Positions 37,134 through 38,006 of a stretch of DNA of 64,000 nt are shown here, piece by piece. Positions within the stretch are counted from its first letter, which is position 1; the number at the start of each line of letters is the position of its first letter. Position numbers and translations under genes: made by a program. The DNA is from Spirochaetales bacterium. Its GTDB lineage: Bacteria; Spirochaetota; Spirochaetia; UBA9216. Under the pieces are notes generated by a model. That model did not search any database, was not told where the DNA came from, and saw only the letters and a program-made list of their open reading frames with translations. The stretch is from assembly GCA_016839055.1 (NCBI GenBank), contig JAEKNX010000014.1, forward strand, positions 1 through 64,000. Reading direction: 5' to 3'.

Positions 37134-37162
37134 TTGACATAAACGCCGATTACGACTATATT
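37134..37162 (+). promoter_or_regulatory. Consensus promoter of the initiator tRNA gene
   Basis: TTGACA (37134-37139), 17-base spacer, TATATT (37157-37162). Transcription would start near 37169, a few bases before the mature tRNA. Confidence 0.85.
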
Positions 37163-37175
37163 CTCAACACAACGA

Positions 37176-37248
37176 CGCAGGGTAGAGCAGCTGGCAGCTC
37201 GTCGGGCTCATAACCCGGAGGTCGCAGGTTCGAATCCTGTCCCTGCTA
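37176..37248 (+). tRNA. Initiator tRNA-fMet (CAT)
   Basis: The cloverleaf has initiator hallmarks: an unpaired first base (C1 opposite U72), three G-C pairs below the anticodon (GGG CTCATAA CCC) and the AGCTCG D-arm. T-arm GGTTCGAATCC. CCA is not encoded; AAG follows. The 3' end from 37231 is repeated three more times downstream in the array. Confidence 0.95.
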
Positions 37249-37254
37249 AGTAGA

Positions 37255-37292
37255 AGATGTTATTCGGTTTATCCGGATAACATCTTTTTTTT
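37255..37292 (+). terminator. Terminator A, copy 1 (tRNA-fMet terminator)
   Basis: AGATGTTAT/ATAACATCT extended by TCGG/CCGG with one wobble closes the loop TTTAT and is followed by eight T. A strong intrinsic terminator seven bases after the tRNA. Confidence 0.93.
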
Positions 37293-37420
37293 GCCCAGAT
37301 GAAGGGATAGGATTCGAACAGTAGCTCTCGCCGAGCTGGCGAGGATAAGCGCCCACGATGGGCGCGGCAGAGAGCGCAGGCGGCCTGGAGGTCGAAGACA
37401 GGATGTCTGAGATCGGAAGG

Positions 37421-37440
37421 CGAATCCTGTCCCTGCTAAG
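37421..37440 (+). repeat. tRNA-fMet 3' tail, second copy
   Basis: 20 bases identical to tRNA positions 37231-37250 (T-loop end, acceptor 3' strand, discriminator and the next two bases). Further copies are at 37602-37621 and 37792-37811. All four are followed by a terminator. Confidence 0.93.
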
Positions 37441-37441
37441 T

Positions 37442-37482
37442 AAAACACCATTTGGACTTTAGTCCTGATGGTGTTTTTTTTT
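37442..37482 (+). terminator. Terminator B, copy 1
   Basis: AAAACACCAT/ATGGTGTTTT with an inner GGAC/GTCC and loop TTTA, ending in nine T. Its sequence is unrelated to terminator A. Confidence 0.92.
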
Positions 37483-37663
37483 GCCCGAATACAAGGACAG
37501 GATTCGAACTGAATGAGCGCGCGAAGCGGAAGCGAGGCAGGAAGCCGAGCGCCAGCGAATGAGGCGGCTCGACGAGTCCGCACGATGCGGACGACAGAGA
37601 GCGAATCCTGTCCCTGCTAAGTAGAAGATGTTATTCGGTTTATCCGGATAACATCTTTTTTTT
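37483..37663 (+). ncRNA. Candidate structured unit 2 of the tRNA-derived array
   Basis: Same plan as unit 1 with a different interior. A 12-bp closing stem (37495-37506 with 37602-37613), a hairpin CGAGCGCC/GGCG-CTCG (37546-37571, one bulge) and GTCCGCA-CGA-TGCGGAC (37576-37592), again followed by CAGAGAGCG and then terminator A. Relative to unit 1, three pairs of the CGA-loop hairpin change on both sides. The 18 bases at 37519-37536 recur at 37936-37953. Confidence 0.4.
37626..37663 (+). terminator. Terminator A, copy 2
   Basis: Identical to 37255-37292. It ends unit 2. Confidence 0.92.
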
Positions 37664-37853
37664 GCCCAGATGAAGGGATAGGATTCGAACAGTAGCTCTC
37701 GCCGAGCTGGCGAGGATAAGCGCCCACGATGGGCGCGGCAGAGAGCGCAGGCGGCCTGGAGGTCGAAGACAGGATGTCTGAGATCGGAAGGCGAATCCTG
37801 TCCCTGCTAAGTAAAACACCATTTGGACTTTAGTCCTGATGGTGTTTTTTTTT
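37664..37853 (+). ncRNA. Candidate structured unit 3 (duplicate of unit 1)
   Basis: Identical to 37293-37482, including terminator B. After it an inverted T-arm (37864-37880) begins a fourth unit that has no matching tail further on, so the array is truncated there. Confidence 0.4.
37813..37853 (+). terminator. Terminator B, copy 2
   Basis: Identical to 37442-37482. It ends unit 3 and lies about 150 bases before the nucleotidyltransferase start codon. Confidence 0.92.
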
Positions 37854-37882
37854 GCCCGAATACAAGGACAGGATTCGAACCA

Positions 37883-37954
37883 TGCAGTGCGAAAACGTGA
37901 AGCACTGCAGCCCCCCTGCTTTTACCCGATATGCGGCGCGAAGCGGAAGCGAGC
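37883..37954 (+). other. GC-rich hairpins between array and nucleotidyltransferase
   Basis: TGCAGTGC/GCACTGCA around an 11-base loop (about 37883-37909), and GCGGC/GCCGC enclosing the 18-base motif shared with unit 2 (37936-37953). These probably belong to the truncated fourth unit or to a related GC-rich repeat. Confidence 0.45.
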
Positions 37955-38006
37955 CGCTCACCTCTGCTATTTGCATTTCTTTTACCAGCGGATTATATTA
38001 ACGACT

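Follow-up and report, generated by a model that had tools for sequence, protein, structure and literature searches.

Structured repeats behind tRNA and tmRNA genes carry arms that match the local tRNA

The tRNA-linked repeats (TLRs) of Escherichia coli were seen as early as 1978 and, to our knowledge, have no agreed function to date. Their hallmark is an 18–19-bp copy of the 3′ end of the upstream stable RNA (PMC8144298). At rrnB, read-through of the terminator T1 produces RrB, which lies between T1 and T2, has its end 3 nt beyond the tail copy and binds both Hfq and CsrA (PMC8144298). No CsrA binding is predicted for the TLRs of tyrT, whose loops read GCA (PMC8144298); such binding therefore cannot be a function common to all TLR-like units. 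The motifs of CsrA sites include the CsrB element CAGGA(U/A/C)G and the RsmE loop ANGGAN (PMC7652899). In the literature searched, which did not reach most subscription papers, we found no TLR-like repeats outside enterics.

An array of repeats follows the initiator tRNA gene in the window, by which we mean the whole 64-kb stretch of Spirochaetales DNA that was analysed. By the published hallmark, these units are tRNA-linked repeats. All features of the array lie on the + strand. The tRNA-fMet gene (initiator tRNA-Met(CAT), no encoded CCA; 37176–37248) is preceded by a sigma-70-like promoter, TTGACA-17-TATATT (37134–37162), called solely by its match to the consensus (11 of 12 positions); it is the one promoter-like site ahead of the array. 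Behind the tRNA come three complete units and a fourth that is probably decayed, on a common plan of terminator, inverted T-arm, folded interior and tail copy. Terminator A, a hairpin with a T run (37252–37292), leads into unit 1 (37303–37438), composed of an inverted T-arm (37303–37319), an interior and a tail copy (37421–37438). The interior contains hairpin P3, with apical CACGATG (37349–37365), and arm P4 (37384–37420), which has GGA/GGA and GA/GA internal loops and a CsrB-type motif, CAGGATG, at its apex (37399–37405). Terminator B (37442–37482) separates unit 1 from unit 2 (37492–37619), a B-type unit with an inverted T-arm at 37492–37509, a CAGGAAG loop at 37538–37544 and a tail copy at 37602–37619. 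Then follow a second copy of terminator A (37623–37663), unit 3 (37674–37809; tail copy 37792–37809), which is the same as unit 1 in sequence, and a second copy of terminator B (37813–37853). The fourth unit (37863–37969) retains its inverted T-arm (37863–37881), a hairpin ATGCAGTGC..GCACTGCAG, the segment GCGCGAAGCGGAAGCGAG and a tail-like CACCTCTGCTA, and ends near 37969. The covariance model R1, described below, scores units 1 and 3 at 127.5 bits (37307–37430 for unit 1) and unit 2 at 56.5 bits.

The repeated 18-mer, CGAATCCTGTCCCTGCTA, has its source in the tail of tRNA-fMet (positions 56–73; 37231–37248), and all 18 bases recur in each of the three complete units, at 37421, 37602 and 37792; the 64 kb contain no further copy, even with 3 mismatches tolerated. 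A 13-base inverted T-arm occurs in the 64 kb at 37307, 37497, 37678 and 37868 only. Inverted arm and tail pair into a closing stem, and units 1 and 2 fold far more stably than shuffled sequence (z −3.8 and −4.6, respectively). The alternating terminators were revealed by direct folding (A, −20.4 kcal/mol, z −7.5; B, −19.2 kcal/mol, z −5.9), the built-in terminator scan having missed these A/T-rich structures. The sequence-only reading that preceded this work had described the anatomy correctly, from the three further tail copies and terminators A and B to the inverted T-arms and the closing stem. The stretches 37231–37509 and 37602–37880, 279 nt each and spaced by 371, are identical, the second terminator A being part of the repeated sequence; the array is therefore of the form ABA′, with A′ a recent tandem copy. 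Its exact copy number depends on a single assembly of 43 contigs.

Among the closest counterparts are the TLRs of E. coli tyrTV (RtT RNA, RF00391). Like the units described here, they form a tandem array in which the tail copy extends from T loop to discriminator; they also open with an inverted T-arm (GGGGAAGGAT..ATCCTTCCCC) and fold into strong hairpins with a tandem G-A arm, CUC-GA-GC..GC-GA-GAG. Unlike our units, which have GGA or CGA loops, they have GCA loops, and no obvious terminator lies between their copies. The earlier statement that the plan matches nothing known by name is right only in part, as the E. coli TLRs have this plan too (PMC8144298). Rfam offers no matching model. At the gathering score and at E ≤ 5, Rfam yielded no usable family for the units; a match to MIR7994 was at chance level, below that family's cut-off, and was rejected. 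The RF00391 model had no match in 60 genomes of the class, and the units fail its gathering score. Conversely, R1 and R2 give the E. coli repeats (loci L052 and L348) 9–13 bits, which is not significant genome-wide. Given these scores and the lack of RF00391 matches, common descent of the units and the E. coli TLRs is unproven; the shared design was recognized by eye.

RrA, RrB and RrF, which lie behind 5S rRNA in E. coli, resemble the units in being placed between two terminators, in ending on a copy of the 3′ end of the upstream stable RNA and in carrying a hairpin, GGCGGGCAGGACGCCCGCC, with the same CAGGACG apex; the CsrA binding on record is theirs (PMC8144298). They differ in having a 5S tail instead of a tRNA tail and no matching inverted arm, and R2 gives this type of repeat only 9.6 bits. 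The RrB repeat (L348, 700–830) does hold an orphan sequence resembling an inverted T-arm, GCGGATTTGAACG, which suggests that RrB descends from a tRNA-linked unit. CsrB, CsrC, RsmY and RsmZ share with the units hairpin loops of the CAGGA(U/A/C)G or ANGGAN type (PMC7652899), except that they have many such hairpins where the units have two; the units, moreover, are tRNA-linked and lack a promoter of their own, and their CsrA binding is putative. Finally, Islander-type islands at tRNA and tmRNA genes also duplicate the tRNA 3′ end, starting in the T loop and taking in the rest of the gene (PMC4383910), whereas the units are tiny, lack an integrase, have a conserved RNA-like fold and carry an inverted arm re-fitted to the target.

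When the host genome was searched with the array, similar interiors turned up behind further tRNA genes, each with the tail of the tRNA in question. Because RNAalifold recovered only part of the structure from the mixed alignment A1, R1 was built from 12 units of the class with a hand-made structure, later checked on unfitted columns. With R1, the host genome has 13 units: three behind fMet, three behind a tRNA-Leu 3′ half, two behind elongator Met, and single ones behind Pro-CGG, tmRNA, Gly-CCC and Leu-CAG, plus a weak one in a Ser cluster. In the covariance-model search of related genomes that the sequence-only reading had proposed, units are widespread: with 17 candidates scored per genome, at least 83 of the class's 198 genomes and at least 43 of its 92 genera bear them. 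Over the whole family, a genome has up to 19 copies. A motif scan of contigs named as carriers Spirochaetaceae and Treponema metagenome-assembled genomes (MAGs), an Elusimicrobia MAG, a marine bacterium and three Deltaproteobacteria MAGs, one of them with a unit at 108 bits; matches of the scan are mostly due to chance in GC-rich genomes, and only matches that R1 confirmed were retained. The scanned motif contains no tRNA sequence, and 9 of the 10 loci confirmed at E < 1e-5 adjoin an upstream tRNA. One of the Deltaproteobacteria MAGs belongs to a phylum in which units occur in 8 of 148 genomes. Nine of ten bystander genomes had none and the tenth had one weak match; R2 run over 229 Gammaproteobacteria gave a single weak match, with no tRNA nearby, which we judged to be chance.

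Linkage was analysed for 122 units in 95 loci, with tRNAs called by ARAGORN. Directly 3′ of a tRNA or tmRNA and on the same strand lie 115 of these units, covering 28 labels (27 tRNA types and tmRNA), mostly 40–70 nt from the tRNA end. Of the other seven, two start close to a contig end, at distances of 5 and 105 bases, and five follow tRNA-Leu 3′ halves that start at the anticodon loop (three at L084, one each at L105 and L108) and were apparently displaced by an integrated element. Two of these displaced halves (L084/L002, L105 and L108) have common ACAACATAAGC/GACGACATAAGC repeats just upstream, and these surroundings are probably the ends of an integrative element, with the linked units still behind. 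In general, the tail copy runs from position 56/57 (T loop) of the local tRNA to discriminator 73 with an identity of about 0.92–1.00, reaching about 0.99 over positions 57–68 (93 units). Its edges are sharp, identity being 0.05 at positions 54–55 and 0.62 at position 74. Tails match their own tRNA at 16.1 of 20 positions on average, compared with 9.7 of 20 for the tails of other tRNAs. The inverted arm corresponds to positions 54–65 of the local tRNA, in a profile drawn from units picked for good match.

Units at the same tRNA are conserved within a genus. Across families, which tRNA a unit follows bears no relation to its interior (mean identity 0.533 at the same tRNA versus 0.535 at another). 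In one genus, the interiors at Leu-CAG (genome G112) and Pro-GGG (G145) are 85% identical and each has the arms of its own tRNA; units have thus moved between tRNAs and been re-fitted. The arms also stay in step with a tRNA that changes: in G002, the T-stem of the tRNA is altered, and both the unit tail and the inverted arm show that alteration. Behind tRNA-fMet, where the sequence-only reading had proposed to check for variation in copy number among relatives, there is no unit in G001, one unit each in G002 and G003, and three or more in the present genome, all within one genus; the empty site of G001 retains a flank homologous to 37867–37890. Arrays grow through tandem duplication. We regard it as established that these are structured mobile elements behind tRNAs; retargeting and patchy occupancy give good support to the earlier suggestion of a tRNA-borne mobile repeat. 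In L145 (G143, contig C13), the sequences on either side of the unit agree exactly over the tail and 32 nt or more of the terminator region that follows it, in the manner of a long target duplication.

Units share a conserved interior fold, in which tandem G-A motifs accompany two main hairpin arms (P3 and P4). In the 122-unit alignment, standard pairs fill 90.6% of cells and double changes occur at 35 of 35 modelled pairs; covariation scores 0.605, compared with 0.157 after column shuffling and at most 0.069 after sliding, in an alignment that was fitted to the structure. An unfitted MAFFT alignment of 12 sequences gives the same picture (0.399 versus 0.168). Recurrent elements are the tandem G-A steps CC-GA-GC..GC-GA-GG and GGA/GGA internal loops, and the apices of P3 and P4 read CA(N)GGA(N)G or CASGANG. 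Only the tRNA-sense strand can form sheared G-A pairs. G-U pairs are scarce in unit helices (1.9%), 3–5 times below their share in tRNA stems at these loci (5.8% and 9.0%), a scarcity that hints at selection or repair acting on DNA rather than on RNA alone.

A terminator-like hairpin precedes 65% of units and follows 45%, whereas 13% of random stretches have one. Loops of the CsrB/RsmE type number 155 in the 122 units versus 11.3 in dinucleotide shuffles; 107 units have at least one and 49 have two, the window's units having one each. In P4, about 30% of loops have CGA in place of GGA; in P3, 11% do. The host genome encodes CsrA, as do 148 of the class's 198 genomes, and genomes with the gene bear units more often (odds ratio 3.4, p 0.0009, uncorrected for phylogeny). 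Units are not confined to CsrA carriers: 11 unit-bearing genomes, several of them incomplete, have no CsrA match. In view of the frequent CGA variants and of these 11 genomes, we put forward CsrA binding by the units as a tentative possibility.

We favour, at roughly even chances, the reading that the units are mobile, structured tRNA-linked repeats that are transcribed by read-through and possibly titrate CsrA. On this proposal, mobile structured units of about 130 nt would settle behind tRNA and tmRNA genes, and leaky read-through of the tRNA terminator would give a longer transcript; its tail would be trimmed like a tRNA 3′ end, freeing a folded small RNA whose level would track tRNA synthesis. 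The GGA-loop hairpins would then bind CsrA and titrate it, like CsrB and in line with the role proposed for RrA, RrB and RrF. We infer such an RNA from a promoter located only ahead of the tRNA, the flanking terminators, the RrB precedent, the CsrB-type loops, and the presence of CsrA and its association with units. We consider an RNA function of some kind likely. The earlier guess of a family of small RNAs gains from same-strand placement, covariation and flanking terminators, expression itself being presumed. Our simplest guess is that, after a move, the arms are rewritten by gene conversion from the tRNA, together with selection or template-switch repair on the stem.

A different reading, which we consider rather unlikely, takes the units for selfish DNA elements or transposition intermediates, whose fold is recognized by a recombinase or template-switching machinery that inserts at tRNA 3′ ends, the RNA being incidental. 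Patchy occupancy between congeners, retargeting, high copy number, the near absence of G-U pairs and the sharp edges at positions 56/57 and 73 all fit this reading. However, no companion enzyme is known, the sheared G-A motifs and purine loops are confined to a single strand, which is always the transcribed one, the terminator–unit–terminator layout recurs, and a selfish element would not predict CsrB-type loops. It is improbable that the units are instead a local cis device whose inverted T-arm and additional terminators affect the tRNA ahead of it, by fail-safe termination, as a 3′ processing aid or through antisense control of the T-arm. The arms do match the local tRNA, and the fMet inverted arm can also pair with the T-arm of the tRNA itself around terminator A (−51.8 kcal/mol, z −10.8), but such a device leaves the conserved multi-arm interior, with its independence of tRNA identity across families, unexplained, and units are absent from most tRNAs.

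The sequence-only reading had also considered remains of repeated integration, here by tRNA-targeting tyrosine integrases. Tail copies that run from the T loop to the discriminator do resemble att sites, and an integrase-like ORF (judged by eye) lies about 115 nt behind tRNA-fMet in two relatives (L175, in G003:C41, and L180, in G006:C73), where fMet may also serve as an integration site. The units of about 180 bp (between tails) nevertheless have no integrase ORF or cargo, their interior is conserved, structured and covarying, their inverted arm matches the new tRNA as well, and E. coli has such repeats behind 5S rRNA, an unusual integrase target; we therefore abandon this idea as highly improbable. 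An assembly artefact or chance palindromes might be suspected from two identical 279-nt copies in a 43-contig assembly. For the family, this is refuted, with next to no probability left to it, by the same architecture across 28 tRNA and tmRNA labels and more than 80 genomes and by overwhelming covariation.

The TLR plan is now found in a different phylum and in dozens of genera, with a covariance model and a defined architecture, and congeneric empty and filled sites together with clear cases of retargeting make questions about TLRs testable: whether the units are RNAs, whether they titrate CsrA and how both of their ends are rewritten to match the gene. An unlikely and more far-reaching reading is that the units are previously unrecognized, multi-phylum mobile RNA genes that re-fit both ends by direct and inverted copies of the tRNA 3′ end and couple the activity of CsrA, or of another RNA-binding protein, to tRNA synthesis. 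If so, targeting by a structured RNA or single-stranded DNA that rewrites its arms from the target tRNA would be a new mechanism.

Several further arrangements were seen. In a genome of another phylum, a unit lies behind the selenocysteine tRNA, tRNA-Sec (L338). The host genome also has simpler tail-plus-terminator direct repeats with neither inverted arm nor folded interior: three of about 100 bp behind Thr-CGT on contig C33 (L006) and two short ones behind Cys-GCA on C5 (L026). Finally, a hairpin, CCATGC..CGAAAACGTG..GCAGCC, is common to window positions 37878–37908 and to L002 (1872–1904), after the arrays behind fMet and the tRNA-Leu half, respectively, and is possibly a further unit type or the end of the array.
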